A program made the translations under genes and the position numbers. 33,243 nt of DNA, from IMG/VR virus record IMGVR_UViG_3300010885_061961, positions 1 to 33,243 of that record, one strand, 5' to 3'. The notes under the pieces were generated by a model. The model was not told the origin of the DNA, made no database searches, and saw only the letters and a program-made list of their open reading frames with translations. Below, one piece after another: positions 1 to 22,396 of the stretch (the first letter of the stretch is position 1; every line of letters begins with the position of its first letter). Source of the stretch: a virus.

Positions 1-22
1 CTTTTGATGTTGATGTGCTCAT
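1..22 (-). CDS. Possible start of a gene running off the left edge
   Basis: On the minus strand an ATG at 22 opens MSTSTSK and continues past the window edge. The 14 bases AAGTTATGAGCACA around this start are identical to those around the start of the gene at 2072, which supports a real initiation site. Only seven codons are visible, so no function can be given. Confidence 0.35.
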
Positions 23-43
23 AACTTGACACGGTTGACCTAT

Positions 44-457
44 ACACCGAAAGGTTTAAAAAGGTTACAATGGATATAATATTCAAACGCTTTGAGCCTA
101 AAACCCTATTTATAGTCGCTCAAACGACTTTAATGAAATATATGGGAGTGAAACTGAATAATCAGTAACCCCTCATTTAATAAAAAACTTGAGGAGTGGG
201 AAATTTGATACAGATTTGCATCAATTCCACCCCCCAAGTGGGAATTTGTGGGAGTTTCACCCACATAATAAGACTATAGTGGGAATTTTCACAGATGTGG
301 GTGAGTTGGGCAAGTAGGCACCTACCCACATCACTCCATTCTCTGGAAAATTCTCCAATATATAAAAGCAGCCGCAGGGGTAATCGACTCCCCTAAGACG
401 TGGTTCCCTTGGCTCTTTCGAGCTGTGACATCACCACAAGTATTAACCTTTCGGTGT
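44..457. repeat. 13-bp inverted repeat, arms 44-56 and 445-457
   Basis: ACACCGAAAGGTT at 44-56 is the exact reverse complement of AACCTTTCGGTGT at 445-457. In a minus-strand transcript the two would pair over 13 bp and close off about 390 nt, so this may be a long-range helix of the candidate structured RNA. It could also be a pair of binding sites. Confidence 0.55.
195..288. repeat. Three spaced copies of AGTGGGAA(a)TTT
   Basis: AGTGGGAA followed by A/T lies at 195-206, 237-247 and 278-288, spaced 42 and 41 bases apart. Copies one and two each pair with nearby CCAC/TTCC stretches, so the repeats probably reflect repeated hairpin arms near the 3' end of the candidate RNA. The units are too short and too few for a CRISPR array. 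Confidence 0.5.
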
Positions 458-546
458 CTTGACCGTCACGGCTGTTCCATCGTAGTTACGTCCACGCACT
501 AATCCCCCACACTCACGTAGTGGTCAACGGTTACTATTAAAGCGAA

Positions 547-562
547 TGTTCCACGTGGAACA
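547..562. promoter_or_regulatory. parS-like 16-bp perfect palindrome
   Basis: TGTTCCACGTGGAACA is a perfect 16-bp palindrome. It fits the bacterial chromosomal parS consensus (TGTTnCACGTGnAACA form) bound by ParB. No parA or parB gene is visible in the window. Because it lies inside the candidate structured RNA, it might instead be a hairpin with an ACGU loop. The match is certain; the function is not. Confidence 0.45.
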
Positions 563-1355
563 TACCACTCCATCCAAACATTCTACTGTTTGGTTTGCCT
601 TTGGGTTGAAGTAGTTCGTTTCACTTCTAAAGTTTAGAAGCAACATCCTTTATACGATGTATCCGTCTACCGACAAAGAATACGTAAACAGAGATTTCTT
701 GCGAAAGAAACCCGAGGCTACGCCCACGTATCCCTTTTAAGTTTGTCTAAGGCTAAGCAGTAACGTACCTGCTAAGATGGTTTGACCTCTTGCCAGTGTT
801 CCATCAACACTCCTACTTTCGTAGTCAAAGCCTCCGATGTTCTGTTTGCTAAACGTCCCACCATTGCTAAGGGTCATTTTCGGTTTTAACACGGTTACCC
901 ACTTAAGTTTGCTCTCTGAGAACAGAGACCATTCTAACCGTCCCGAGGTTTACCTACACATCAACCCAACGACTATTCTGTTCCACTAAGACAAGGGGCG
1001 TAGAACATTTCGCCTTAAGTTTCTCAGATTGTATAGACGGTGTACCCGTCACCAACGCGTGGATAGAGACTACTCCGAAGAGAGTCCAAGGCCTTACACC
1101 CACGCGTCCGTTTGTTACCATTAGTCGCAACTAAGGGAATATACAACGGAGTGCTTACATATTGAGTCTGTGCTCAAGTAATCTTTGAGATTGTCAACGC
1201 TAAGGTACGTTTGTAGAACTCAATCATAGATTACTCTTATGTCAAAGAACTTTGCATAGTTTTGCCATTCTATGCAAACCTTATCTGTTTCGGCTATTGA
1301 AGCCATCATCAGTCAACCTTACTTTGGTTGAGACAGAAATTTTTATTCCGTAAGT

Positions 1356-1382
1356 TTTGAAATTAGGGAGTGCGAAGTTATC
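1356..1382. repeat. Left arm of inverted repeat flanking the 1389-2072 gene
   Basis: These 27 bases are the reverse complement of 2112-2140 except for two single-base insertions in the right arm. The left arm lies 6 bases beyond the stop codon of the enclosed minus-strand gene. Confidence 0.8.
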
Positions 1383-1388
1383 GTTTAC

Positions 1389-2072
1389 TTACTTGCCCGA
1401 TGCAAGTTTCTTTTGTGCTGCTTTTTGGTCTTTTTCTTTCTTTTTTACTTCCAATCTCTTGTAGTGCACGCCTCTGTGAGTATCGGGTAGCATAACCACA
1501 GCCAACTCATCAATGATAAGTTTGTCCGCTGCTCTGTAATACTCATTTGATTTATCAGCCACCCTAACTTTAAGTTGCCCAAAGTCTAACGCTTGTACTT
1601 TTGTTATCGGGTTTTTAACTCCCAATAACTCTAGTACGCGTTGGTTTGTTAACTTTCCATTAGTATTTCCATAATGGGCGACCAACGCCATAGACGTCGC
1701 TGCTGCTGCTTCTTCAACTAGTATCTCAAAACTATTAGACTTGAAACCATTTGTGAACGGGTAAGTACACCCGTCTATCATAATGCTAACATCTAGGGAA
1801 GGGTGAAGATGTTCACACATCTTATCAATTCCCTTTGATATTTGATTTTCAAGTTTAGATAGCATATCAACTTTGAAAGATATAGTTCTAGGCTTCGCCT
1901 CTTTATCTTTTTTCAATTTAACCATAAAGCGAATTATGATTTCAACAAAATCTGAAATTTTGTTTTCTTTCGCTTTTTTACTCTTCGCCTTCTTTACTGT
2001 TTCCTTGTCTGAAGTAACTGTTTCAATAACTGTTTCAACGATATTTTCTTGTGCAATGTTTTGTGTGCTCAT
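1389..2072 (-). CDS. Unrecognised protein enclosed by an inverted repeat
   Basis: A 227-residue protein starting MSTQNIAQEN. I chose the ATG at 2072 because extending to 2081 would need a TTG codon. The first 60 residues are polar and lysine-rich (KKAKSKKAKENK), followed by a globular part with a stretch of small residues (EEAAAATSMALVAHYG, around residues 120-135) and a lysine-rich C-terminus (KKKEKDQKAAQKKLASGK), suggesting a soluble, possibly nucleic-acid-binding protein. I do not recognise the family. Two minus-strand promoter-like repeats lie at 2221-2385 upstream, and the candidate structured RNA lies directly downstream on the same strand, so the two may be co-transcribed. Base composition is somewhat richer in G+C than in the 2758-7711 genes. 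The 27-bp inverted repeat around it would bring the ends of its mRNA together. Confidence 0.85.
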   Translation of the reverse strand: MSTQNIAQENIVETVIETVTSDKETVKKAKSKKAKENKISDFVEIIIRFMVKLKKDKEAKPRTISFKVDMLSKLENQISKGIDKMCEHLHPSLDVSIMIDGCTYPFTNGFKSNSFEILVEEAAAATSMALVAHYGNTNGKLTNQRVLELLGVKNPITKVQALDFGQLKVRVADKSNEYYRAADKLIIDELAVVMLPDTHRGVHYKRLEVKKKEKDQKAAQKKLASGK

Positions 2073-2716: not shown

Positions 2717-2725
2717 ATATTTATA
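2717..2725 (+). promoter_or_regulatory. ATATTTATA motif upstream of the HExxH gene cluster
   Basis: ATATTTATA, 32 bases before the ATG at 2758. The same nonamer recurs ahead of several other transcription blocks in the window; proposed phage late-promoter core. Confidence 0.45.
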
Positions 2726-2757
2726 AAAGTATAGTGCAAAAAAAATTTTCAGAAAAA

Positions 2758-4095
2758 ATGAAGTTTGTTGATTTATTAGAACATATAGTAAAAGAAGCAT
2801 TGGGGGTCCCAGATGGGATATTAGAATCTGCGGAAGATTTATATAAAGATATTTTGGATCGTCTACCTTCACTTAAAAATAAAATTGATACAAGTAAAAA
2901 TGAGTTTAGATTGGAATTTGATAATTCTACGGGGTATAAGATAGGTGATTTAGTAATAAAATATGTTTCTGTTACTTTTAGATTAAAAAAAAATGGTCGA
3001 TACCTTTTAAATGGGTATGCGGTTAATCCACACCTAGCTCCTGAATTAAATCTTTATATTGATTTAATAGTACCAACTAATTGGAATTTTAATGAAGTAA
3101 TATATTTACTTATTTCAAAAGAAAAAAAGATAGTTCCTAGTATTTCTCATGAACTTATGCACGTATATGATTTTTATAAACGTAAGCACTATAACATATC
3201 AGGTATTGGGAAATATAATGTTAGAAATAGTGATGTTTTTTCAAAAATTTATCCAATAAGTAATTTTCTTAATTTATTATATTTTACACATTCTATTGAA
3301 AATGTAGTAAGGCCAAGCGAGTTTGCCTCTGAATTGAAAAAAAACAAAATCAATTTAAAAAACTTTTTAGAGTTTTTAAAAAGAGATGACACATATTATA
3401 CATTAAAACGAGCAAAAAATTTTTCTTATGAAGAATTAAAAAATGATTTGAAAAATTATATTCCAGAAATAGAGCTTGTAATTAAACATTTTAATGATGT
3501 AGGAAATACAGATGAAGATAAGATTGATAAAATTTTAGAAATGGTTAGGGATTATGTAAAAAATAATGTTGAAAAAAATCATAGTAATATGGTGTTTTTT
3601 GATGTAATTGGTAAAACGTATGGTGACAAAGGAAGATCAATGGGTTTAAATAAAGTTATTAAAACAATAGGAAAGTTTAATAGTAACGATGCTTTTTATA
3701 AAAACGAAGAAAAGATATTTAATGAAGTTGGAGATAAAATGATTAGAAAGTTGTCTAAGCTTTATGATACTACTTATAACAATAATTCATTTTACGGTAA
3801 ATTAATTAAAAAAACTTTAACTAAAGAAGAGTTAAATGTTGATGGTGATCTTAATTTATCAAATACTAATATAAAGTCACTACCAAAAGGTTTAGAAGTT
3901 AGTGGGGATCTTAATTTAATTGGGTGCACTAAATTAGAATCACTGCCTAGTGACTTAAAAGTTGGAAAAGATATTTGGTTGACAGGTACTCCAATAGCTA
4001 AAAAATACACTAAAGAACAATTCAAGAAAGGTAGGAAAAAATGGATTGAGAAAATATACCCAGGAGTATTTATAAAAAGAGATGTTTATTTATAA
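2758..4095 (+). CDS. HExxH putative zinc metalloprotease with leader and leucine-rich-repeat-like tail
   Basis: A 445-residue protein. The start at 2758 is chosen over the ATG at 2713 because it aligns the leader MKFVDLLEHIVKEALG with those of the paralogues at 4885 and 5948 and has an A-rich lead-in. The segment GVPDGILESAE follows the leader. HELMH (residues 131-135) and a Glu in the conserved PSEFAS segment (about residue 188) give the His-Glu-x-x-His plus distant Glu pattern of gluzincin zinc proteases; the proteolytic role is inferred from this. The C-terminal 75 residues hold two or three copies of a 20-22 residue unit (LKSLPKGLEVSGDLNL type) ending TPIAKKYT, a leucine-rich-repeat-like domain. 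The VKE near residue 13 resembles a prohead-protease site, suggesting packaging in the capsid. The gene is very AT-rich. Confidence 0.8.
   Translation: MKFVDLLEHIVKEALGVPDGILESAEDLYKDILDRLPSLKNKIDTSKNEFRLEFDNSTGYKIGDLVIKYVSVTFRLKKNGRYLLNGYAVNPHLAPELNLYIDLIVPTNWNFNEVIYLLISKEKKIVPSISHELMHVYDFYKRKHYNISGIGKYNVRNSDVFSKIYPISNFLNLLYFTHSIENVVRPSEFASELKKNKINLKNFLEFLKRDDTYYTLKRAKNFSYEELKNDLKNYIPEIELVIKHFNDVGNTDEDKIDKILEMVRDYVKNNVEKNHSNMVFFDVIGKTYGDKGRSMGLNKVIKTIGKFNSNDAFYKNEEKIFNEVGDKMIRKLSKLYDTTYNNNSFYGKLIKKTLTKEELNVDGDLNLSNTNIKSLPKGLEVSGDLNLIGCTKLESLPSDLKVGKDIWLTGTPIAKKYTKEQFKKGRKKWIEKIYPGVFIKRDVYL
4086..4094 (+). promoter_or_regulatory. Variant TTATTTATA motif before the flavodoxin-like gene
   Basis: TTATTTATA, one mismatch from ATATTTATA, overlaps the last codons of the gene at 2758 and lies 29 bases before the ATG at 4124. 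Weakest member of the set because it is partly coding and not exact. Confidence 0.25.
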
Positions 4096-4123
4096 AAAAA
4101 TTTATTTCTAAAATATTATTAAA

Positions 4124-4888
4124 ATGAAGTTACTTAACTTACTACTAGAGGATCTCAAGATAGATACGAAATTTAAAAATCAGCTTCAAAGAGCTGTGGA
4201 CTACTTAGATACGAAAAATAAGGTATTGTTACTGACTACGTCTAACAGAGGAGATTTGTCTTCTAAGGACGGAACAGACTCTCCTAAATCTACACGTATT
4301 GCTGAAGTAATACAAAGGACCTTAGGGGGTGATAAATGTACTTTGGTAGATGTGTCTAAACTAAAGATATATTCTTGTGAAGGAAATGTTTCTAGTAAGG
4401 ACGGTAATACCTGTGGGGTTAAAGCTGCTGCTTTGAAGGATAAGAAAAAGAACCCTACCGGGAACCTAAGGTGTTGGGCTTCATATAATAATCCGGATGA
4501 TGAGCTTTGGAAGATTGTTACTCCGTTATTAGAATCAGATGCTGTAGTGTTCATGGGATCTATTAGGTGGGGTCAAACCAATGCTATCTATCAGAAGTTG
4601 ATTGAAAGATTGAATTGGATTGAGAACAGACATACTACATTAGGGGAGAAGAATATTGTTAAGAGCATTGAGTCAGGGTTTATCTTTATAGGACAGAATT
4701 GGAATGGTGCCCAGGTAGTAAAGGTACAGAAAGAGGTACATAGGTTTTATGGGTTTAAACCAGTGGATAAGTTGTACTTCAATTGGCAGTATACGCAGGA
4801 TGAATTAGATGAGACTAAAGCTAGTTATAAAGAAGCTATACATGCTTTAGATAATATTATTGATAATAGGATATTAGATAAAAAATGA
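4124..4888 (+). CDS. Flavodoxin-fold / NADPH-dependent FMN reductase-like protein with leader
   Basis: A 254-residue protein starting MKLLNLLLED, a leader like those of its neighbours with an LLE site. After it, a Rossmann-like strand KVLLLTTSNRGDLSS (about residues 33-47) with a Ser/Thr-rich loop in the FMN-phosphate position, then a region with three Cys, then DAVVFMGSIRWGQTNAIYQK (about 139-158) and GFIFIGQNWNGAQ (about 186-198). This order fits NADPH-dependent FMN reductase and flavodoxin-like quinone reductases, so an FMN-dependent redox role is likely. It overlaps the next gene by ATGA, indicating co-translation. Its sequence is less AT-rich than the HExxH genes on either side, so it may have a separate origin. 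The substrate is unknown; virion packaging is inferred from the leader only. Confidence 0.75.
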   Translation: MKLLNLLLEDLKIDTKFKNQLQRAVDYLDTKNKVLLLTTSNRGDLSSKDGTDSPKSTRIAEVIQRTLGGDKCTLVDVSKLKIYSCEGNVSSKDGNTCGVKAAALKDKKKNPTGNLRCWASYNNPDDELWKIVTPLLESDAVVFMGSIRWGQTNAIYQKLIERLNWIENRHTTLGEKNIVKSIESGFIFIGQNWNGAQVVKVQKEVHRFYGFKPVDKLYFNWQYTQDELDETKASYKEAIHALDNIIDNRILDKK

Positions 4889-5916
4889 AACTTATTAAAA
4901 TTTTAGAACAGGTATTAAACGAGAAGTTAGGAGTTCCCGACGGGATATTAGAAGCTGCTGAGGATATATTTAATAAATGGATTTCCATTTTAGAAAAAAG
5001 AAAAGGCAAAAAAAATAAAGTTTTTGATTTTAGAATAATTCCATTAGAAATTGGGGATTTAGAAGTAAAAAATATTAAAATAGAATTAAAAACGATTAAA
5101 TATAATAATTATAAATTTTATAGTATGCATGTTCTTCCCATTAAAGGGGGAGATTTTTATTTTAACGTAAATATTAAAACCCCCTCTGATTGGGATATCG
5201 ACGGATTAATATCTCACCTACGTAAAGAATCTTCAAATTACATAAGTTTTATTTCTCACGAACTAAAACATTGGTATGATTTTAACAAGCAAAAATATTT
5301 TAGAAAATCTGATATTTTAAGATTTACTAATTTATCTATTATTGATGTCGAAGATATTAAACCTATAGATGATTTTTTGTTTTCGATGTATTATATAAGC
5401 AATGTTGAAAATGTAGTTAGATCCACTGAATTTGCATCTAGATTAAAGTCTGAAAAAGTTACTCGTAAAAACTTTTTAGAGTTTTTAAAAAACGATGACA
5501 CATATTTTGCATTAAATCAAGCAAAAAATTTTTCTTATGAAAAATTAAAAGATGATTTAAAAAATTATATTCCGGAAATAGATAAATTTTTTAAAGAAGT
5601 TGGTATGGACAAAGATTTTAAAAAATATAATATAGTTCTACAAACTGACAAAGAAAAAATTGATGAATTTTTAAAAAATATAAAAATGGTTATAGAAGTT
5701 TATGCAGTGTCTTATTTTAATGAATTAAAAAAATTTGATATGTTAAAAGATTTTGGTATTAAAAAAGAAACATCCGACAATGTTTTTTTAAAAAGCGTAG
5801 GTAAATTTAATAGCGTAGATGCTTTTTATAAACATGGGGAGAAGATGCTAAATAGTTTTGGAGATAAAATGATTAGAAAGATTTCTAAACTCTATGATAT
5901 GGTTGATGATAAATAA
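4885..5916 (+). CDS. HExxH putative zinc metalloprotease, form without repeat tail
   Basis: A 343-residue paralogue of the gene at 2758. Leader MKLIKILEQVLNEK is followed by LGVPDGILEAAED; LNE at residues 11-13 fits an L-x-E prohead-protease site. HELKH lies at residues 125-129 and the putative third zinc ligand Glu is residue 182 in STEFAS, 53 residues on, the same spacing as in the paralogue. The segment after it (VTRKNFLEFLKNDDTY) is nearly identical to the third copy at both protein and DNA level. The protein ends at KMIRKISKLYDMVDDK, just where the other two continue toward the leucine-rich-repeat-like tail, so this copy is protease core only. It begins inside the stop codon of the flavodoxin-like gene. 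Confidence 0.8.
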   Translation: MKLIKILEQVLNEKLGVPDGILEAAEDIFNKWISILEKRKGKKNKVFDFRIIPLEIGDLEVKNIKIELKTIKYNNYKFYSMHVLPIKGGDFYFNVNIKTPSDWDIDGLISHLRKESSNYISFISHELKHWYDFNKQKYFRKSDILRFTNLSIIDVEDIKPIDDFLFSMYYISNVENVVRSTEFASRLKSEKVTRKNFLEFLKNDDTYFALNQAKNFSYEKLKDDLKNYIPEIDKFFKEVGMDKDFKKYNIVLQTDKEKIDEFLKNIKMVIEVYAVSYFNELKKFDMLKDFGIKKETSDNVFLKSVGKFNSVDAFYKHGEKMLNSFGDKMIRKISKLYDMVDDK

Positions 5917-5967
5917 ACTAAATATTTATAAACAATAAAACAATAAAATGAAATTAGTTAAAATTTT
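5911..5967 (+). repeat. 57-bp exact direct repeat, copy 1 (leader region of third HExxH gene)
   Basis: Identical to 7225-7281. The unit contains an ATATTTATA motif, an A-rich lead-in and the first codons MKLVKI. It works as a portable transcription, translation and leader cassette in front of two different genes. Confidence 0.85.
5922..5930 (+). promoter_or_regulatory. ATATTTATA motif before third HExxH gene
   Basis: Exact ATATTTATA 17 bases before the ATG at 5948, inside the 57-bp direct repeat. Confidence 0.45.
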
Positions 5968-7045
5968 AGAACAGGTACTAAACGAGAAGTTAGGAGTTCC
6001 CGATGGGATATTAGAAGCTGCTGAGAATTTGTGTAAAGATATCATAAGAGGGTTAGTTAATTATGAGTCTGATGAAAATAAAATAGAAGGTGGGTTTAAT
6101 ATGTCGTTTGAAGCAGATCCACATTATAAAATAGGTGATTTAACAATAGTGCGTGTTGGAGTTAGTTTTGAAATTTATATTGGTAGAAGATTTTATATTG
6201 AGGGAATGAGTGTACCTAATCGTAACATAGCTCACAATGAATTGTATCTTACTATTAATTTAACAATTCCTCCTAATTGGGATTACTCTGATATAGCTGA
6301 TGTTATTATAGAGGAAGAAAGAACTAAATTTATATCTTCACTTTCTCATGAACTTATGCATTGGTTTGATCATGAAAAAAGAAAAAATATTACCAATAAA
6401 TCAACACTTGCAAAATATGATTACAGAAATATTAGTAAGGATCTTAGAGATATTCATCCAATAAATAATTTTATTTATTTATTATACTTTACACATTATA
6501 TTGAAAATTCAGTTAGATCCACTGAATTTGCATCTAAATTGAAATCTGAAAAAGTTACTCGTAAAAACTTTTTAGAGTTTTTAAAAAACGATGACACATA
6601 TGAAACATTAATACAAGCAAAAGATTTTTCTTATGAAAAATTAAAAGATGATTTGGAAGGTTATACTACAGAAATAGATGATTTTCTTTATTTATTAAAT
6701 GGTTATATAGGAAATACAAATGAAGAAAAAATTGATGTATTTCTAAAGTATGTTAGGAATCTAATAGAAAGTAATGCACGTAATAATTATTATACCAAAA
6801 AGTTATTAAATACACTCGCTGATTTTAATATTAAAGAGTATCTGCCTGATAAATTTATTAAAAAAGTAGGTAAATTTAATAATAACGATGCTTTTTATAA
6901 ACACGAAGAGAAACTACTTAATAATATTGGAGATAAAATGATTAGGAAGTTGTCTAAACTTTATGATACAGTTGATAATTCATTTGAAGATAAAATTAAA
7001 AGTGGAAAAGAAGAATTTTCTGAGGAGGAGTTTGATTGGAGCTGA
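5948..7045 (+). CDS. HExxH putative zinc metalloprotease, frameshifted before its repeat tail
   Basis: A 365-residue third paralogue. Leader MKLVKILEQVLNEK and LGVPDGILEAAE match the copy at 4885 almost exactly. HELMH lies at residues 134-138 and the candidate third ligand Glu at 193 (STEFAS). The frame ends at a TGA just after EEFSEEEFDWS, while the repeat tail seen in the first paralogue resumes at once in the +1 frame (7038-7214). So either this copy has a recent frameshift, or the tail is reached by ribosomal frameshifting, or there is a sequencing error. I see no convincing slippery site at the junction. The protease core looks intact. Confidence 0.8.
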   Translation: MKLVKILEQVLNEKLGVPDGILEAAENLCKDIIRGLVNYESDENKIEGGFNMSFEADPHYKIGDLTIVRVGVSFEIYIGRRFYIEGMSVPNRNIAHNELYLTINLTIPPNWDYSDIADVIIEEERTKFISSLSHELMHWFDHEKRKNITNKSTLAKYDYRNISKDLRDIHPINNFIYLLYFTHYIENSVRSTEFASKLKSEKVTRKNFLEFLKNDDTYETLIQAKDFSYEKLKDDLEGYTTEIDDFLYLLNGYIGNTNEEKIDVFLKYVRNLIESNARNNYYTKKLLNTLADFNIKEYLPDKFIKKVGKFNNNDAFYKHEEKLLNNIGDKMIRKLSKLYDTVDNSFEDKIKSGKEEFSEEEFDWS

Positions 7046-7214
7046 TCTTGATTTGAGGGGATGTACTAGTTTAACATCATTACCCAAAAGGTTAAAAGTT
7101 GATGGAAATATTGACTTAGAAAATACACCAATAGCTGATAAATATACTGAAGAAGAAATCAGAAAAATGTGTTATATAAAGATGTGTGATATCAAAGGAA
7201 AAATTTATTTTTAA
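7038..7214 (+). pseudogene. Out-of-frame leucine-rich-repeat-like tail of third HExxH gene
   Basis: In the +1 frame relative to 5948-7045 the sequence encodes GADLDLRGCTSLTSLPKR, then LKVDGNIDLENTPIADKYTE, and ends IKGKIYF. This matches the tail of the first paralogue (GDLNLSNTNIKSLPKG and TPIAKKYT). There is no well-placed start codon of its own; a frame opening at 6963 overlaps the protease and has no leader. Best read as the detached C-terminus of the upstream gene. Confidence 0.65.
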
Positions 7215-7224
7215 AACTACAAAT

Positions 7225-7281
7225 AAATAAACTAAATATTTATAAACAATAAAACAATAAAATGAAATTAGTTAAAATTTT
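7225..7281 (+). repeat. 57-bp exact direct repeat, copy 2
   Basis: Identical to 5911-5967, placed 1314 bp downstream; covers the intergenic region and the first seven codons of the gene at 7262. Confidence 0.85.
7236..7244 (+). promoter_or_regulatory. ATATTTATA motif before the stand-alone repeat protein
   Basis: Exact ATATTTATA 17 bases before the ATG at 7262, inside the second copy of the 57-bp repeat. Confidence 0.45.
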
Positions 7282-7711
7282 TAAAGAGATGTTGAAAGAA
7301 GCAGAATATACTCAAGGTACTTTTGATTTTGATTCCAAACCTGAATATGGCAGATATCCAATTATTTCTAATATTGAAGATTTAAATAAATTCCTAAGTG
7401 GTAACAGTGGTAAAGAATTTGAAGGTAGTATTGATTTAAAACACAACCAAAGTATAACATCTCTACCTAAAGGTCTTAAAGTTAAAGGCGATGTTAATCT
7501 TTTTGATTGTAGTAAATTGGAAAGTTTACCATCTGATTTAGAAGTTGGCGGAGTATTAAATATAATTTCTACACCCCTAGCTAAAAAACTAGCTGAAAAA
7601 TACAAGGAAGAGAAAACAGAAGAGAAGAAAGAAGAGAGAATAAAAGCAGAACTTAAAAAAATGTTACCTAATGTACCCCGAATAATTTCAAAATACAAAA
7701 TACCAAAATAA
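7262..7711 (+). CDS. Leader plus leucine-rich-repeat-like protein without protease
   Basis: A 149-residue protein. Its first six residues (MKLVKI) are encoded by the same 57-bp repeat that starts the third HExxH gene; the leader continues KEMLKEAEY, with LKE followed by Ala as a plausible L-x-E cleavage site. No HExxH motif is present. Residues 58-105 hold the repeat units (SITSLPKGLKVKGDVNL, LESLPSDLEVGG) ending TPLAKK, followed by a charged helical tail rich in Lys and Glu. It appears to be the tail module of the neighbouring proteases joined directly to the leader, a product of module shuffling. Role unknown; a binding domain is a reasonable guess. Confidence 0.75.
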   Translation: MKLVKIFKEMLKEAEYTQGTFDFDSKPEYGRYPIISNIEDLNKFLSGNSGKEFEGSIDLKHNQSITSLPKGLKVKGDVNLFDCSKLESLPSDLEVGGVLNIISTPLAKKLAEKYKEEKTEEKKEERIKAELKKMLPNVPRIISKYKIPK

Positions 7712-7720
7712 ATATTTATA
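7712..7720 (+). promoter_or_regulatory. ATATTTATA motif before the 7726 gene
   Basis: Exact ATATTTATA directly after the stop of the gene at 7262 and 5 bases before the ATG at 7726. The short distance would give a nearly leaderless mRNA, so function here is less certain. Confidence 0.35.
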
Positions 7721-7725
7721 TAAAA

Positions 7726-8076
7726 ATGATAAACTACTCTTGGGAAGTTTTGCACATGGAGTGCTATGAGAAATTAAACAACTTAGATAAAGTTGTAATT
7801 AAAATAATTAGTAGATATACAGGAGTTAGCGGATCCTGTCATAAAGTGTTGTCGAATATAACAACTTTATCAAATCCCGTACCATCTTCTTTTATTCCAT
7901 ATAATAGTCTAACTAAAAATACCGTTGTGGGGTGGATAGAGGCTGATTTAGGCACTCAAAAGATACAGGCAATGCAAGACTCTATAAAAGAAAAAATAGA
8001 GGCTGATTTAGCCTCTACTTCGACAGTGTCTTTGCCTATACCTTGGAAAGTTGAAACTCCTATTATAGGAGGTTAG
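7726..8076 (+). CDS. Small phage protein, DUF7936-like
   Basis: A 116-residue protein. Its layout fits a family of small phage proteins of unknown function that I recall as DUF7936: an N-terminal beta-rich part beginning INYSWEVLHMECYEK, then FIPYNSLTKNTVVGWIEADL (about residues 57-76), then a short helix with EKIEADL and a C-terminus SLPIPWKVETP. The family assignment is from memory of this F-x-P-[YF]-x-x-L-T...VVGW...LPW pattern. It is the last plus-strand gene before the convergent minus-strand block and ends 10 bases from the thioredoxin gene. A 6-bp hairpin (8057-8071) overlaps its last codons. Confidence 0.7.
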   Translation: MINYSWEVLHMECYEKLNNLDKVVIKIISRYTGVSGSCHKVLSNITTLSNPVPSSFIPYNSLTKNTVVGWIEADLGTQKIQAMQDSIKEKIEADLASTSTVSLPIPWKVETPIIGG

Positions 8077-8086
8077 TTTGGTGTTT

Positions 8087-8350
8087 TTAATGTATAGCGT
8101 TGATTAGTGCTTCATAGGTTGCCTTAGGTCGAACTCCTACTATCCTATTTACTTCTATTCCATCTCTTTCTATTATGATAGTAGGAACGCTATTAATGAA
8201 TTTCTGATTTGCAAATTCTTTATTAAAATCCACATCCACTGATTGGAACTGTGCTCTGCCCGTATATTGAACCTTTAATTGGTCAAATATAGGGGCTAAA
8301 GTTTTGCATGGTTCGCATTTCGTGGATGTGAATCTAATTACTTTTATCAT
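8087..8350 (-). CDS. Thioredoxin-like protein
   Basis: An 87-residue thioredoxin-fold protein. The start at 8350 (MIKVIRFTS) is preferred over the upstream ATG at 8392, because it begins exactly at the first thioredoxin strand and couples to the upstream gene through a TAATG overlap. Redox motif CEPC is at residues 12-15, and the conserved cis-proline segment SVPTIII lies around residues 54-60. Both active-site cysteines are present, so disulfide reductase or electron-donor activity is likely, for instance to ribonucleotide reductase or host targets. It is short for a thioredoxin (about 105 residues is usual), closer to glutaredoxin-sized phage thioredoxins. Confidence 0.88.
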   Translation of the reverse strand: MIKVIRFTSTKCEPCKTLAPIFDQLKVQYTGRAQFQSVDVDFNKEFANQKFINSVPTIIIERDGIEVNRIVGVRPKATYEALINAIH

Positions 8351-8637
8351 TATCTTTCGTTTAATGCGATAAAAGTGAAGATGTACAAGCATATTAGCAT
8401 TATACCGAATACTCCGTAAGTTACTGATACGCCTAAGTTACCCCTGGTGTCAGTACCTGTTACTTTCGTAGGGTCTCCTTTCACTCCTCCGGCCATAATA
8501 CCTGCTAAAATTGCTACAGGAATTGGTGTAAAATACAAATAAAGCTTAGGGAATTCGGTGTAAGTACATAAATAAACTTGTCCCATTGTTAATCCTAGGA
8601 TGATTGCTGCTGCTAAAAACGTTAAAAAAGACTTCAT
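8350..8637 (-). CDS. Small membrane protein
   Basis: A 95-residue protein with three hydrophobic segments: residues 4-25 (FLTFLAAAIILGLTMGQVYL), 33-51 (YFTPIPVAILAGIMAGG) and 70-92 (VSVTYGVFGIMLICLYIFTF). A polar loop of about 18 residues separates the last two. It lies in a minus-strand block with the thioredoxin and overlaps it by one base. Three membrane spans and small size are compatible with a holin, but nothing specific supports that and the endolysin is elsewhere (22407). Confidence 0.75.
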   Translation of the reverse strand: MKSFLTFLAAAIILGLTMGQVYLCTYTEFPKLYLYFTPIPVAILAGIMAGGVKGDPTKVTGTDTRGNLGVSVTYGVFGIMLICLYIFTFIALNER

Positions 8638-8662
8638 GATGCTTGTTTTTTATTGGTTTTTG

Positions 8663-8953
8663 TTAATTTTCTGTGTTTTCTTGTACGCTTTCTTGCGTAT
8701 CTAAGTAGTTTTCTAACAATTCTGATAGGTCATTTAGGACAATAATGTCTGTTTTTAGTTCAGGTTTGATGATTTCTAGTACTTCAAACACTGTTTCTGC
8801 AGCGTCTTCTATGCTTTCTACGTCGATTTCGTCTGTTTCTTCGTCAAAAATTTGGCTAATTGCGGAATAAATTAGCGAATTTGTGAAGTCAGATAGCTCA
8901 AGTCCTTCGCTTTTTTCTAAAAAAGCATTGATTTCTTCCTTAAAATTCTTCAT
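8663..8953 (-). CDS. Small acidic protein, function unknown
   Basis: A 96-residue, strongly acidic, mostly helical protein (EEINAFLEKSEGLELSDF near the N-terminus, DEETDEIDVESIEDAAE in the middle, ending ESVQENTEN). No family recognised. It sits between the MmcB-like gene and the membrane-protein gene in the same orientation with gaps of about 22-25 bases, so it is probably in their operon. Confidence 0.75.
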   Translation of the reverse strand: MKNFKEEINAFLEKSEGLELSDFTNSLIYSAISQIFDEETDEIDVESIEDAAETVFEVLEIIKPELKTDIIVLNDLSELLENYLDTQESVQENTEN

Positions 8954-8975
8954 AATATTTTTGTTTTTTGTAAAG

Positions 8976-9542
8976 TTAATACCTTTCTAACAATAAATCT
9001 CTATATCTGTGATAAAATTTATCTAAAAGTATAGATTTTAATCCGTCTACGGTCTTTTCTTTGTGAATAAATGGTGCTTCTTTAGCTATAATTGGCATTT
9101 TATCAAAGGATTCTATCTCAATTAGCCCAGCATATTCAGGAATCATAGACGTTGCTAGTAGATTTCTAGGGGCCGCATAGAAGAATTTGTTCGGTCTTTT
9201 GCTGTTATTTGTGTCTATTTTTGATTCTAGGAGGATATGTTTGTCTTTTTTGTTGAAATCATCCTTGAAATCACCCCTAGTAACCTTGATTTCGATCTCA
9301 TATACATATCCGGATTCGGATACAGTGAAGAAATCTGACTCCCAATCGTAAATAAAAGCATTATTTATCTGATAGGTGTGGTTGGCAAACTTCAATCTAA
9401 GAGCCTCTATTATGTCTTTTGATGTTATTTCTTCTGCATTTCTTACAGCAGTTATGTTCTTTATGGACTTCTTTTTCATGTAGCTTGGCTTCACCAAGTC
9501 AGATTTCCCCAAAGAACTAAAATTTATTAACGAGTCTGACAT
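8976..9542 (-). CDS. MmcB-like / PD-(D/E)XK nuclease-fold protein
   Basis: A 188-residue protein. After a basic N-terminal stretch comes SKDIIEALRLKFA (about residues 41-53), a helix typical of MmcB-family proteins, then a D-x-x-S-x-F strand, then EIEIKVTRGDFKDD (about 82-95). The last segment has the E-x-K core of the PD-(D/E)XK nuclease fold and the R-x-D-F signature of the MmcB family. NKFFYAAPRNLL and AGLIEI complete the fold. Such proteins are linked to DNA repair in bacteria and are common in large phages; a nuclease role on DNA is inferred. The 62 bases between this start and the 9605 gene hold AT-rich sequence with a TATATACGTATATA palindrome at about 9565-9579. Confidence 0.72.
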   Translation of the reverse strand: MSDSLINFSSLGKSDLVKPSYMKKKSIKNITAVRNAEEITSKDIIEALRLKFANHTYQINNAFIYDWESDFFTVSESGYVYEIEIKVTRGDFKDDFNKKDKHILLESKIDTNNSKRPNKFFYAAPRNLLATSMIPEYAGLIEIESFDKMPIIAKEAPFIHKEKTVDGLKSILLDKFYHRYRDLLLERY

Positions 9543-9604
9543 AATATTTATTTAAATGATAATATATACGTATATACTATGGTTGACCTAAATTCCTAGA
9601 TTTT

Positions 9605-11101
9605 TTATCTTCCGATTCTTTCTTGAATTTTACGTGCATGTTCTTCACCCCACTTTTTCTCATCTGCTGCTGAAGTTGGATTACTTGCTCTATGTCCTTT
9701 GTTTACGTTTTTTAGTTTATCTAAATAATTTCTAAATACGTCTGTTGACATTTGGGCAAATTTTGCAGCATATGCTTTTAAGTCATATGACCCGTTATAC
9801 GAAGGATAAAAACAAGTAGTTGTGACACTACCAGGATTGCCATCAGCATCAGAACCTTTTGTTTTTATTGTATTGGGTATTACATGAAACAATACTTCCG
9901 TCAATTTTTTGAAATCATTTTGGTTCAACCCGAATCCCTTTTTACCGGACTTCATTAATTTAAACTCATATTGTATAAAAGGAACCATACTTAAAGATAA
10001 ATTTTTGATGCCCTTTTCTTTTATGTATTTTTTTAATTCATCTTTACCTTTAGTACTTCCTCCTGCTGTTCCCTCATCTAGTATTGTTTTGCCTAACAAC
10101 CCCTTTCCATCTAAATAATCTAAATACTCATTCCAGGCTTTTCTTTGATCTTCTGTAGTTTCTTTATATCCTGTTGGCATAATAGGTTCGCTTCCCCCCG
10201 TATACTTTAAAAACTCAGGATCTGTGCTTTTATATTCATCATCACTTTTTGATAATGCACCTTTGATTACATTTTTTAATTCTGTTGTATCTCCCTTTTT
10301 TAATTCCCCTACTTCTTTTTTTACTGATTCAATTTTGTCCTTAGGAATGGAATTTGCAACAGTATTAGCTTTTGCTTTATTCATTCCAAACGAGGAAGCT
10401 AAAATAATAGCTAAGGTTGCTGCGGTTTCTTTAAAACCCTCATCTAATGTCTCCTGTTGCTCATAGATATAATCTATAAGTCTTTCATCAGTAATTTTAC
10501 CTTCTTCAACTAATTCTACTAATATTTCTGTTAATTTCATTTTATTTTTTTTGTCAGGCACTTCTTTGGGGTACGTAAAAATTTTATGAGCCCCCCCAAT
10601 AGGAATTTCTCCTGTATAAATTAAATAAGATTTATCTCCTTTTTCTATAAATTTATAATCAGGTATTTTATTTAAATTATTTTTAACTAGATTATTATAA
10701 ATTCTAGTTCTTTTAGACTGAATATCACTACTTAAACTTAATTTACCTTCTTTTTTAGAAAACCATCCCGAGTATTCTATTGCTTCAGGTTTAAACTCTT
10801 TAATAAACTCATATGAAGCTTTAAGAACAGTTGCTAATACCTTCAAAGAATCATAATCATTAGTATCTATTACACCCCTATCATCTTCAAATGTACAATA
10901 AGAAGTCCAATTAATTTTATACCCCTCTATTGTTTTTTCTGAGTATATAGAAGAATACTTAATAACACACTCATATTTTGATTTGGGTGTGAATTTATAG
11001 GAAACATCACTCCACACAGGTGTAGGTTTTCTAATAATAGGTTTTGAAAGAACATAAGCAGAATTTAAATCAATAGCTTCTAATATACTAATAAATTTCA
11101 T
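9605..11101 (-). CDS. Two-part phage protein with leader and possible internal start
   Basis: A 498-residue protein starting MKFISILEAID; ILE followed by Ala fits the I-x-E prohead-protease site. Residues 30-160 resemble a domain often seen in large phages with a conserved D-x-L-K-V-L-A-T-V-x-x-x-x-x-x-F-I-K pattern followed by RTRIYNNLV; its function is unknown. At residue 188 (ATG at 10540) a second, complete leader starts: MKLTEILVELVEEGKI, preceded by AAAAAATAAA, a lead-in like those of true starts here. The rest (311 residues) has a hydrophobic small-residue helix TAATLAIILASSFGM and a C-terminal globular part ending EHARKIQERIGR. The frame may encode two proteins or be a fusion of two adjacent genes. 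It overlaps the upstream gene by TAATG. Confidence 0.75.
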   Translation of the reverse strand: MKFISILEAIDLNSAYVLSKPIIRKPTPVWSDVSYKFTPKSKYECVIKYSSIYSEKTIEGYKINWTSYCTFEDDRGVIDTNDYDSLKVLATVLKASYEFIKEFKPEAIEYSGWFSKKEGKLSLSSDIQSKRTRIYNNLVKNNLNKIPDYKFIEKGDKSYLIYTGEIPIGGAHKIFTYPKEVPDKKNKMKLTEILVELVEEGKITDERLIDYIYEQQETLDEGFKETAATLAIILASSFGMNKAKANTVANSIPKDKIESVKKEVGELKKGDTTELKNVIKGALSKSDDEYKSTDPEFLKYTGGSEPIMPTGYKETTEDQRKAWNEYLDYLDGKGLLGKTILDEGTAGGSTKGKDELKKYIKEKGIKNLSLSMVPFIQYEFKLMKSGKKGFGLNQNDFKKLTEVLFHVIPNTIKTKGSDADGNPGSVTTTCFYPSYNGSYDLKAYAAKFAQMSTDVFRNYLDKLKNVNKGHRASNPTSAADEKKWGEEHARKIQERIGR

Positions 11102-11943
11102 TAGTCTCTTTTTAAACGCACTTTAGCCTTTTTTGTATTTGATACAAATTGTTTTCCTTTTTTAGACGCAGCCACCTTCTTTCTAGAAGTAGCGGCTCTT
11201 TCTTCTTTAGACAAGCTTTCAGCTTTAGCACGAGGTAAACATCTAGTTGTAGGTCTGCCCTTTTTCATAGTCCCACAGGGGCCTGCAATATCTCCTTGAG
11301 TATCTATCCTAACCCAATCTTCTTCAGTAAACCAATCGTGGAGGGATTCCTTTAACTGTTTTTCTTTTTTTAATTTTTCAGTTTTTCTTTTAGAGGCTTC
11401 TTTTATCTTATTAATAAAATCTAAACCATGCTTTAATCTTTCTTTAACATCAGGATTTTTAGCATTTTCATAAGCTGCTTTTAATCTCTGCTGAATCAAA
11501 TTAATAATTTGAGACTGTCTAGCGTGTGGTTTGGATTTGAATGATTCTTTTGATAAAGTATCTCTTATGTCTTTTACAGTCTTAAACTTAACATGTACTG
11601 TATCTTTTGGATTCTCATCCGTATACAATCTTCGATCCGATCCCTTAGGCTTTTTTCCGGTTCCTTCTTTAGGGTCAGCTTCGTATATGAAATTATCTAA
11701 TTCAATATCATTTTGATCTACATAACCACATGTTTCACACTCTGCTATATTTTGCTCGTGAACTCTTCTTAGTTTTTTTCTTTTTTTCTTTTTTATCCTC
11801 CCATTACAAACTTGTACTGCCCTACCCGATAAATAAGCTGATGACTTCTCTCCTGCTCTCCTGCGTTTATTGTAGTAAGCCCTGCCTCTAGGGCAGAGTT
11901 TAGCTTCAATAATTAAGTCTTGTAATATCTCTAGTAGTTGCAT
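11101..11943 (-). CDS. Basic DUF5872-type protein with leader
   Basis: A 280-residue, very basic protein. The leader MQLLEILQDLIIEAK has IIE followed by Ala, a good match to an I-x-E prohead-protease site. Next is LCPRGRAYYNKRRRAGEKSS with C17 and then C46 (VQVCNGR), a motif seen in phage and giant-virus proteins, then a C-x-x-C pair at residues 69 and 72. The C-terminal part has DWFTEEDWVRI, GPCGTMKKGRPTTRCLPRAK and SLSKEERAATSRKK, which I recognise as DUF5872. Cys and basic residues suggest a metal-binding, nucleic-acid-associated protein; together with the leader this fits an internal head protein. Function is otherwise unknown. Confidence 0.75.
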   Translation of the reverse strand: MQLLEILQDLIIEAKLCPRGRAYYNKRRRAGEKSSAYLSGRAVQVCNGRIKKKKRKKLRRVHEQNIAECETCGYVDQNDIELDNFIYEADPKEGTGKKPKGSDRRLYTDENPKDTVHVKFKTVKDIRDTLSKESFKSKPHARQSQIINLIQQRLKAAYENAKNPDVKERLKHGLDFINKIKEASKRKTEKLKKEKQLKESLHDWFTEEDWVRIDTQGDIAGPCGTMKKGRPTTRCLPRAKAESLSKEERAATSRKKVAASKKGKQFVSNTKKAKVRLKRD

Positions 11944-20503: not shown

Positions 20504-22396
20504 ATGACACAAAAAGATATAAAATTAATTAATAAAGATTTTACTGGATTTAAGTCCTCATTAGTTGAGTACTCTAAGAATTATTTTTCAGATATTTACA
20601 ATGATTTTTCTGAGGCTTCTCCCGGTAATATGTTTATAGAGATGGCTGCTTATGTTGGAGATGTGTTATCTTTTTACATTGACAAACAGACTCAAGAAAA
20701 CTTTCTTTTGTTTGCTCAAGATAAGCAGAATCTAATATCAATGGCTTATGCTTTTGGGTATAGACCTAAAGTTACAGCTACAGCTATAGTAGATTTAGAT
20801 GTATATCAAAAAGTTCCTTGTTTTTTTAGTGGTTCACAAGCATCTCCTGATTTTTCTTATTGTTTGTCTATTGCCAAAGAAGCTAAAGTAAGAGGATCTT
20901 CAAATACAGATGTAGTATTTTTGACACAAGATTTAGTTGATTTTAGTTTCTCTTCTTCTGCAGATCCTACTCAAGTAAGCGTTTATCAAATAAACACAAC
21001 TACAAACCAACCTGATTATTATTTACTTAAAAAAACAGTAAAAGCTATAGCAGGTACTGTAAAAACAGCTGATTTTTCTTTTGGTGATCCTATAAAATTT
21101 AATAAAATAACTTTACAGGATGACAATGTTATTCAAATATTAGACATTACAGACAGTGACGGTAATAAGTGGTTTGAAGTTCCATATTTGGCACAAAGTA
21201 CTATTTTTAGAGAGGTTAAAAACAATGAATTAAATGATCCATTTTTAGCCCAATATTCAGACACAACTCCTTACTTGTTAAAACTGAGGAAAGTATCAAG
21301 AAGGTTTGTCACTAGATTTGACACCAATTATAAACTAAGTATAGAATTCGGATCAGGTATAAGCATGAATCCGGATGAAGAAATCATACCAAACACAGAT
21401 AATTTAGGAATGGGCCTAATAGACTCCATATCAAAAATGAATCTAGCGTATGACCCAGCAAATTTCGTATACACAAAAGATTATGGATTAGCACCTGCTA
21501 ATACTACCCTTACCGTTAGATACATAGTTGGAGGAGGCGTGGCTACAAACGTAGCATCAAACACTCTTTCTCAAATATATGAAATTAATACAAGCCCTGT
21601 ATCACTAAATCCAAATACACTAAATCAGAGTTTATTAAACTATGTAATAAGTAGTGTATCGTTTAATAACCCTAACCCTGCAACAGGGGGAGGAAATGGA
21701 GATTCTATAGAGGATATAAGATTAAAAACTATTGCTAATTTCCCAACACAATTAAGAAACGTAACAAAGGATGACCACGTTATACGAGCTTTGAGCATGC
21801 CTTCTAAGTTTGGGACAATAGCAAAAGCATATGTTACTCAAGATTTAGCTTTTAGCACGCCTGATAAGCTTACAGATTTTATATCTAATAATCCTCTAGC
21901 TTTAAGCTTATACACATTATCATACAATTCAACTAAAAAATTGGTAAATACTAGTTTTGCAATAAAAGAGAATTTAAAAAACTATATAAACCAATACAAA
22001 ATAACAACAGATGCTATCAATATAAAGGATGCATATTATATAAACATTGGTATAAATTTTGAATTGATCGTTCTCCCATCTTATAACAATAGACAAATAT
22101 TATCTGATTGTATTGACATATACAAAGACTATTTTAACATAGACAATTGGCAAATAAATCAGCCAATTATACTATCAGAATTGTATACAATAATAAATTG
22201 TAAAGTAAAAGGTATACAGAGTATATCTAAAGTGGAAATAGTAAATAAATACGGTGAAGATAAAGGTTATTCAAAATACGGATATGATATAAAAGGTGCT
22301 ACTATGAACAATGTTATTTATCCTAGTTTAGACCCTTCTATATTTGAAGTAAGATATCCTGATACAGATATAATGGGTAGAATTGTAACTTTTTAA
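20504..22396 (+). CDS. Baseplate wedge protein, gp6 / J-like
   Basis: A 630-residue protein of the T4 gp6 / P2 J baseplate family. The N-terminus has IKLINKDFTGFKSSLVEYSK then DFSEASPGNMFIEMAAYVGD and VLSFYIDKQTQENFL, the sequence of conserved helices typical of gp6 wedges. Around residues 405-440 GNGDSIEDIRLKTIANFPTQ and RNVTKDDHVIRAL match the J-family core (E-x-x-R...R-A-V-T-x-x-D). The length agrees with T4 gp6 (660). gp6 dimers form the ring around the hub that drives sheath contraction. Confidence 0.9.
   Translation: MTQKDIKLINKDFTGFKSSLVEYSKNYFSDIYNDFSEASPGNMFIEMAAYVGDVLSFYIDKQTQENFLLFAQDKQNLISMAYAFGYRPKVTATAIVDLDVYQKVPCFFSGSQASPDFSYCLSIAKEAKVRGSSNTDVVFLTQDLVDFSFSSSADPTQVSVYQINTTTNQPDYYLLKKTVKAIAGTVKTADFSFGDPIKFNKITLQDDNVIQILDITDSDGNKWFEVPYLAQSTIFREVKNNELNDPFLAQYSDTTPYLLKLRKVSRRFVTRFDTNYKLSIEFGSGISMNPDEEIIPNTDNLGMGLIDSISKMNLAYDPANFVYTKDYGLAPANTTLTVRYIVGGGVATNVASNTLSQIYEINTSPVSLNPNTLNQSLLNYVISSVSFNNPNPATGGGNGDSIEDIRLKTIANFPTQLRNVTKDDHVIRALSMPSKFGTIAKAYVTQDLAFSTPDKLTDFISNNPLALSLYTLSYNSTKKLVNTSFAIKENLKNYINQYKITTDAINIKDAYYINIGINFELIVLPSYNNRQILSDCIDIYKDYFNIDNWQINQPIILSELYTIINCKVKGIQSISKVEIVNKYGEDKGYSKYGYDIKGATMNNVIYPSLDPSIFEVRYPDTDIMGRIVTF

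Follow-up and report, generated by a model that had tools for sequence, protein, structure and literature searches.

An N-terminal leader shared by unrelated proteins of an uncultured T4-like phage is very probably a cleavable capsid-targeting tag

To our knowledge, the proteins injected together with the phage DNA have been determined in only a few model phages. In the T4 internal proteins IPI, IPII and IPIII, a leader of 10–19 residues, nearly identical on unrelated bodies, ends in L/I-x-E before Ala (Mullaney and Black 1996; PMC9026906, PMC3012670). T4 Alt, a head-packaged ADP-ribosyltransferase, is packaged after gp21 cleavage and ejected (PMC5512222, PMC9026906); a Pfam scan recognised no ADP-ribosyltransferase domain in the leader proteins described here. 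In phiKZ-like phages and SPN3US, a diverged protease of the gp21 type cleaves ejection and head proteins after x-x-E (PMC10052503, PMC5694885, PMC9026906), but the motif there is S/A-x-E or A-x-E, and most of the propeptides are far longer, at over 100 residues. The Dar/polyvalent proteins of phage P1 resemble the present set in having an N-terminal packaging signal (DarB), multidomain cargo and metallopeptidase domains, but lack a consensus leader (PMC9024508).

Analysis of a 33,243-nucleotide stretch of DNA (the window) from an uncultured T4-like phage confirmed a leader family, a short N-terminal tag common to otherwise unrelated proteins (Table 1). As in the T4 internal proteins, the leader is nearly identical on unrelated bodies and ends in L/I-x-E before Ala, and an S77 protease and a gp23 capsid protein are found in the window's relatives. 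The T4 control shows the same arrangement, ipII and ipIII having MKTYQEFIAE/A in common. The two systems differ in the leader itself (MKLxxIL.. here, MKTYQEF.. in T4), in the larger number of leader genes per genome, in the multi-module cargo with LxE between modules, and in the bodies, which here are flavodoxin-like, HExxH and basic Cys-rich modules. No published description of these leaders was found in a limited literature set.

Table 1. Features of the window; a slash marks the predicted cut after the leader E.
Feature	Position	Strand	Description
TATTTATAAA, candidate shared promoter element	2718..2727	+	31 bp upstream of leader protein 1
Leader protein 1	2758..4095	+	MKFVDLLEHIVKE/A leader (2758-2796), HExxH metallopeptidase-like body, LRR-like C-terminus
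TATTTATAAA, twice	4067-4076 and 4087-4096 (within 4067..4096)	+	
Leader protein 2	4124..4888	+	MKLLNLLLE/D leader (4124-4150), flavodoxin-like FMN/quinone reductase-like body
Leader protein 3	4885..5916	+	MKLIKILEQVLNE/K leader (4885-4923), HExxH paralogue
Upstream region and leader DNA, copy A (shared cassette)	5909..5985	+	Family D3 reference
TATTTATAAA	5923..5932	+	
Leader protein 4	5948..7045	+	MKLVKILEQVLNE/K leader (5948-5986), HExxH paralogue
Upstream region and leader DNA, copy B	7223..7299	+	90% identical to copy A over 77 bp
TATTTATAAA	7237..7246	+	
Leader protein 5	7262..7711	+	MKLVKIFKEMLKE/A leader (7262-7300), LRR-like body
Leader protein 6	9605..11101	-	MKFISILE/A, DUF6934-like body (residues about 1-187), fused to second module
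Second module of protein 6	9605..10540	-	Starts with internal leader MKLTEILVELVEE/G at Met188
Leader protein 7	11101..11943	-	MQLLEILQDLIIE/A leader, then three modules
Baseplate wedge protein, query for relatives	20504..22396	+	47% to immuto, 66-74% to close IMG/VR contigs

The leader is found at 7 of the 35 gene starts of the window and at only one of 96 internal Met residues, that at 10540 (Fisher 4e-4), and shuffling residues 2–25 of each gene start 500 times gives 0.35 expected leaders (maximum 3), the pattern having been derived from the finding itself and later widened (M-I-K forms) once the relatives had been seen. Among seven contigs of close relatives, it is present at 43 of 542 gene starts versus 6 of 1,836 internal Met residues (2e-22), the shuffled mean being 3.4 and the maximum 10. 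The complete Flavobacterium phage immuto carries about one clear leader gene; its total of 5 is no higher than shuffling can produce (maximum 6). In this phage, gp082 (KNV73_gp082) begins MRLLELLRE/A. Low-GC phages often have gene starts of the MK-hydrophobic type, but a chance resemblance of ordinary gene starts is contradicted by the excess in the window and in the relatives, and its probability is negligible. The shared leader reported in the initial annotation is confirmed, and its coordinates were all correct, including the internal ATG. The three HExxH proteins are paralogues and are thus counted once, so that the leader stands on five kinds of unrelated body, not seven.

The E residues of the leaders cluster at positions 8–10 and 13–14, and Ala follows the E in 22% of cases versus 7% in the background. 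The residue after the predicted cleavage site (P1') is usually small; against this, protein 2 has Asp there, and both protein 3 and protein 4 have Lys. The leaders contain hydrophobic residues, which would also be compatible with membrane or secretion signals. This idea, which we consider extremely improbable, was rejected by inspection only: the leaders are acidic and lysine-rich, they lack an uninterrupted hydrophobic core and show no signal-peptidase or lipoprotein motif, and homologues sit in the head gene cluster.

The proteins initially described as HExxH proteases do contain the motif, which is conserved, but the structure model did not establish a zincin fold; built from three sequences, it reached a pLDDT of 51 and gave no usable match in the PDB, so no fold is claimed. 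Single-sequence search found no close relatives of the HExxH protein, and two near-identical loci were recovered by alignment. The Pfam match to MPTase-PolyVal (polyvalent proteins), at 17.2 bits, lies far under the curated cut-off of 27.5 and is not read as membership. The LRR-like body of the 7262 protein resembles the C-terminus of the 2758 protein. Genes 5948 and 7262 have upstream and leader DNA in common and differ in their bodies, which speaks for leaders that can be exchanged between bodies. Together with the paralogy of proteins 1, 3 and 4, this arrangement could also mean that paralogy, gene conversion or a conserved translation-start region accounts for the shared N-termini, which would then have no protein function. 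Such an origin is very unlikely, since the leader occurs on unrelated bodies with differing codon use, on both strands and across many genomes, and since the same bodies bear different leader sequences across S77 lineages.

Proteins 6 and 7 are built of several modules. No relatives of the second module of protein 6 were found. Protein 7 comprises a Cys-rich KLCP module, a DPKxGTGKKPKG module and a module matching PHROG 23735, with IYE/A, IKE/A and LKE/S standing between modules. The label DUF5872, previously attached to this basic protein, was unsupported by the Pfam scan, the C-terminus matching the PHROG family instead. The LxE sites kept between fused cargo modules may allow them to be cut into separate proteins.

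The flavodoxin fold attributed to protein 2 is backed by a confident structure model; Pfam and PDB sequence searches returned nothing significant, and the match comes from structural comparison only. Phage copies have 36.8 residues before the flavoprotein core and cellular homologues, which are without an N-terminal extension, have 24.5; cut at LxE, the phage copies would retain 24.7, close to the cellular length. In relatives, the gene is located near gp23, among head genes. Five gp23-positive contigs bearing the leader-tagged flavoprotein gave no match to PF03420 (S77), and in three of these, where the head clusters were read, no S77 gene lies beside gp23; in all five, the gene may lie elsewhere, may have diverged or may be missing from the fragment.

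The S77 (gp21-type) protease is absent from the window, a 33-kb fragment of the genome, but five of the seven close relatives (G001, G002, G003, G004 and G006) encode it, as does G012. The isolated phages immuto and Mel-JY01 have both the protease (Pfam PF03420, E 9e-35 and 6e-30; gp070 in immuto) and a gp23 capsid protein. Motifs of the L/I-x-E type are found in the N-termini of the relatives' own proteases (QLLE/A, QLTE/A, KLTE/A, SLNE/A and LLTE/S), and their gp23-family capsid precursors carry GLLE/G; the window's own capsid gene lies outside the fragment. A search for a virion proteome of a relative found none, the 2020 Baltic Flavobacterium phage paper being silent on immuto proteomics. 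In archaeal-virus-like contigs, a different leader, MSWxxILK, occurs on many genes, and the protease there is S78.

Comparison of homologues places a boundary at LxE, where leaders are exchanged. The window module ADPKEGTGKK... exists as a standalone protein (MADPK/MSKD) in contigs without detected S77, including the complete phage HTVC033P, and LxE stands exactly at the junction (LxE/ADPK) in 9 of 10 independent S77-positive genomes; for module B in the S77-positive contig L142, the junction is lacking. Among long or complete records, the junction is associated with S77 status at Fisher 0.0065, a value weakened by fragments and shared ancestry. This comparison takes the place of a binomial P, which carries no weight here, its class having been picked once the data had been inspected. 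An HExxH homologue from another S77-positive phage reads MKILKESELRLSIKKVLLE/RLGVPEG, versus MKLVKILEQVLNE/KLGVPDG in the window, so that homology resumes after the same E behind different leaders. These natural experiments support a predicted cleavage after L/I-x-E. The leader might instead be an uncut docking peptide that tethers the proteins to the core, portal or tail of the virion, LxE being only part of an amphipathic helix. A helical pattern alone would place E at regular positions, P1' is not always small, and phage P1 DarB is packaged via an N-terminal signal for which the available part of PMC9024508 reports no cleavage. Uncut docking is nevertheless unlikely, because in several cargo families homology starts again exactly behind LxE, a cut there would restore the length of the cellular homologue, LxE sites also occur at fused-module junctions, and Ala is enriched after the E.

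The capsid-targeting reading of the initial annotation is supported by the relatives' protease, by the motif in capsid and protease precursors and by the exchange at the LxE boundary, and further by homologues that lack the leader, both cellular ones and those from viruses without detected S77, and by the controls with T4 internal proteins. We consider it highly probable that these N-terminal stretches are capsid-targeting leaders like those of the T4 internal proteins, S77-cut, lineage-specific and exchangeable between bodies. Very probably the leader directs loading of the proteins into the head and is removed afterwards, as happens in T4. During head assembly, this short leader, probably an amphipathic helix, would dock each protein to the prohead core; the S77 (gp21-type) prohead protease would cut after L/I/V-x-E, near residue 8–10 or 13–14, and the mature body would stay inside the head, probably to be ejected with the DNA. 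From the sequences we strongly infer packaging and cleavage; ejection of the cargo into the host is proposed by analogy with T4 only, and takeover-effector roles for the cargo are guesses.

A broader reading, which we put forward tentatively, is that capsid-address leaders are general, lineage-specific and exchangeable labels across tailed viruses, cargo modules moving between genomes and gaining the local tag. Each lineage's tag would match its own prohead core and protease, with the MKLxxILxExLxE, LTExxL..VINE and MRSFSxFINE types in gp23/S77 lineages and MSWxxILK with S78, and some cargo would be polyproteins diced by the prohead protease. The archaeal-virus-like leader would extend the principle beyond T4-type heads. 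Cargo families that exist in matched forms, leader-bearing and leaderless, offer ready-made pairs in which to test cleavage and packaging. As the leader very probably loads head cargo, the tag can be used to predict proteins carried into hosts; if it is a packaging label, the virion cargo of thousands of uncultured phages could be predicted from their sequences, along with enzymes that would be active ahead of all phage gene expression.

Every leader that the initial annotation had placed in the window, each a short shared N-terminal stretch ending in LxE, is present at its position in the sequence. When gene starts fitting the leader pattern with LxE within the first 22 residues were counted, 7 of the 35 in this complete IMG/VR record of 33,243 bases qualified, against a mean of 0.35 and a maximum of 3 after shuffling of the N-termini. 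The proposed internal leader was the sole match among 96 internal methionines, and in seven close relatives the pattern was found at 43 of 542 gene starts versus 6 of 1,836 internal methionines. The claim that unrelated bodies follow one leader stands for five kinds of body, since the three HExxH proteins are paralogues. As paralogue 2758 carries the leucine-rich-repeat (LRR)-like tail fused in frame, gene 5948 appears to be frameshifted or truncated. Between genes 5948 and 7262, 77 bp covering the upstream stretch and the first codons are 90% identical; the bodies that follow differ, a sign of leader movement within the window. All five copies of TATTTATAAA in the window (1.6 expected) lie directly upstream of a plus-strand leader gene, which suggests common regulation of these genes.

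Coordinates of the features (window positions unless another record is named)
Feature	Position	Strand	Description
Protein 1	2758 (start)	+	HExxH
Protein 2	4124 (start)	+	flavodoxin-like body
Protein 3	4885 (start)	+	HExxH
Protein 4	5948-7045	+	HExxH
Protein 5	7262 (start)	+	
Protein 6	11101 (start)	-	DUF6934-like cargo fused to a second module bearing an internal leader of its own
Protein 7	11943 (start)	-	three modules
Internal leader	10540		
Left end	1-2000		G+C 0.41 vs 0.27-0.38 elsewhere in the window; ORFs without matches among the relatives
LRR-like tail	6963-7214		other frame, overlaps the end of protein 4
Fibre-like protein	31454-33241		long Thr/Pro-rich TPTxTPS repeats, extends past the contig end
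immuto gp082	L003:12261-12575		labelled tRNA(Ile2) agmatinyltransferase
G044 leader block	12.7-35.0 kb of G044		MSWxxILK leader

The baseplate wedge protein of the window matches those of Flavobacterium phage immuto (160 kb) and Microcystis phage Mel-JY01 (190 kb) at 47 and 46% identity, respectively, and IMG/VR contigs at 66–74%. Both phages and eight contigs (the close G001–G007, and G012 at 53%) were examined in full. The gp21-like prohead protease expected by the initial annotation was not detected within the 33,243-base window and was found in its relatives: immuto gp070 and the Mel-JY01 protease match Peptidase_S77 (T4 gp21 family; 9e-35 and 6e-30, respectively), and S77 proteases also occur in G001, G002, G003, G004, G006 and G012, with no match in the fragments G005 and G007. 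The capsid proteins of both phages match Gp23. In T4, gp21 cleaves after L/I-x-E (PMC9026906). The N-terminal stretch of the relatives' proteases is variable except for a retained QLLE↓A, QLTE↓A, KLTE↓A, SLNE↓A or LLTE↓S (↓, proposed cut), and their capsid precursors contain GLLE↓G; the window leaders thus end in the motif carried by the clade's own head precursors.

The T4 capsid-targeting sequence is enough for packaging and is taken off by gp21 (PMC9026906, PMC3012670). This known sequence, MKTYQEFIAE↓A, served as a control: it is common to ipII and ipIII, whose bodies are unrelated, and ipI carries ITE↓A. Across the window and its relatives (58 leader genes), the glutamate of LxE lies mostly at positions 8–10 and 13–14 and is followed by Ala in 22% (7% elsewhere). 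A second form, MIK[LF]xx[IL][LF]xE, is found in relatives, where leader genes are grouped in blocks, several of them near terminase and portal genes. As counter-evidence, the residues after E are unusual in proteins 2, 3 and 4, and immuto has few leader genes.

The flavoprotein has 28 viral relatives with bodies 54–74% identical, the N-termini of which vary by lineage (MRSxxELLLE↓A, MRSFSSFINE↓S, MMSFSKYITE↓S, MKTILQEELNRLRQLMLSE↓E). In cellular genomes, both bacterial and archaeal, a scan located 37 homologous loci (46–58% identity), with 24.5 residues ahead of the conserved core versus 36.8 in LxE-bearing phage proteins, or 24.7 once these are cut at LxE (Mann–Whitney p 3e-7 uncut, 0.61 cut, the cut site being chosen among candidates by the analyst). 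The gene lies among head genes near gp23 in three relatives. Five gp23-positive contigs carrying a leader-bearing flavoprotein gave no S77 match, which is counter-evidence. The protein 2 model (pLDDT 82), confident except for residues 2–10, resembles FMN-binding quinone reductase-like proteins (best E 9e-8, TM ~0.5). A Nudix-like protein starting MNIFEAYKIIKE↓S, near a gp23 head cluster in L253, L254 and L255, looks like a further leader-bearing enzyme.

In protein 7, the modules are separated by IYE↓A, IKE↓A and LKE↓S. Residues 90–196 (DPKEGTGKKPKGS...RRLYTDENPKDT) belong to a mobile module with hundreds of relatives, found at the protein start in ~35 loci (MADPK, MSKD, KKKD), behind leaders (MISLNNILNEVLSE↓ADPK, MIKLVDLLKEITE↓GDPK, MIKLLEILNE↓ADPK in G012) or behind other domains (FGVMYE↓ADPK, GKPLNE↓ADPK, ELLQE↓ADPK). 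Predicted cutting at LxE↓ADPK would give the same N-terminus as the leaderless MADPK proteins after Met loss. An S77 protease was found in 10 of the 50 contigs searched. With the near-identical L132 and L134 counted once and G012 added, LxE falls exactly at the module junction in 9 of 10 independent S77-positive genomes; the exception, L142, is counter-evidence. No S77 was found in 27 searched contigs with a standalone or W-leader module, or in HTVC033P, a complete phage with a leaderless module; gp23 occurs in nine contigs, all S77-positive. The association is strong evidence, though not independent, as many of the contigs are fragments and interrelated. Relatives G003:37746 and G006:12562 hold the modules in other combinations, with a corresponding junction that reads MITE↓KLCP or LLYE↓KLCP, and the DUF6934-like cargo of protein 6 exists in relatives as a leader gene of its own. 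We infer that the protease dices the fused cargo of both proteins.

Only two near-identical loci (39%) were found as relatives of the HExxH protein, with a third leader type, MKxI[IV]xLTExxL...[IL]xE; an S77 gene is present on the larger contig, G070. Comparison of its protein start, MKILKESELRLSIKKVLLE↓RLGVPEGILE, with MKLVKILEQVLNE↓KLGVPDGILE in the window indicates that the leader is swapped and homology picks up again after E. The same swap is seen in the immuto gp082 family (MRLLELLRE↓A, MINFIKLLTE↓A, MITLLDILQE↓V and, in G070, MKIIITESQLKKLNLE↓E). This small leader-bearing protein has relatives in G002, G012 and G070, and its agmatinyltransferase label is probably a misannotation. The third type (MKxI[IV]xLTExxLxx[IL][IV]K[KR][VI][IL]xE), noted in L206/L205 and G070 (97.7 kb), is borne by 11 genes of an S77-positive contig, versus 0.17 expected from shuffling.

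Another leader, MSWxxILK (M-[STN]-W-x-x-[IV]-[LI]-K), begins 16 of the 29 genes of one block of G044, the contig of L151, and none of its other 101 genes; the block also holds terminase and portal genes. Because G044 encodes a TCP-1/cpn60-family chaperonin, an AAA clamp-loader-like ATPase and an S78 head maturation protease, it is possibly an archaeal (magrovirus-like) virus. Leaders of this type also occur in L149, L152, L155, L164 and L166, and a similar stretch lies inside proteins directly ahead of the ADPK module (KKSWQDILKKE↓PRKG).

Sequence comparison shows a leader family ahead of unrelated bodies, exchange at LxE and an S77 protease in relatives. In the mechanism that best explains this, the leader would dock the cargo to the prohead core and be cut off by the S77 protease; the mature protein would stay packaged in the head and probably be ejected. 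The roles of the cargo proteins are likewise putative. No published description of these leaders was found in the literature open to search. The principle is already known from T4; what is new is that phages other than the T-even group have lineage-specific leaders, that these are exchanged at the cut site, and that cargo can consist of several modules.
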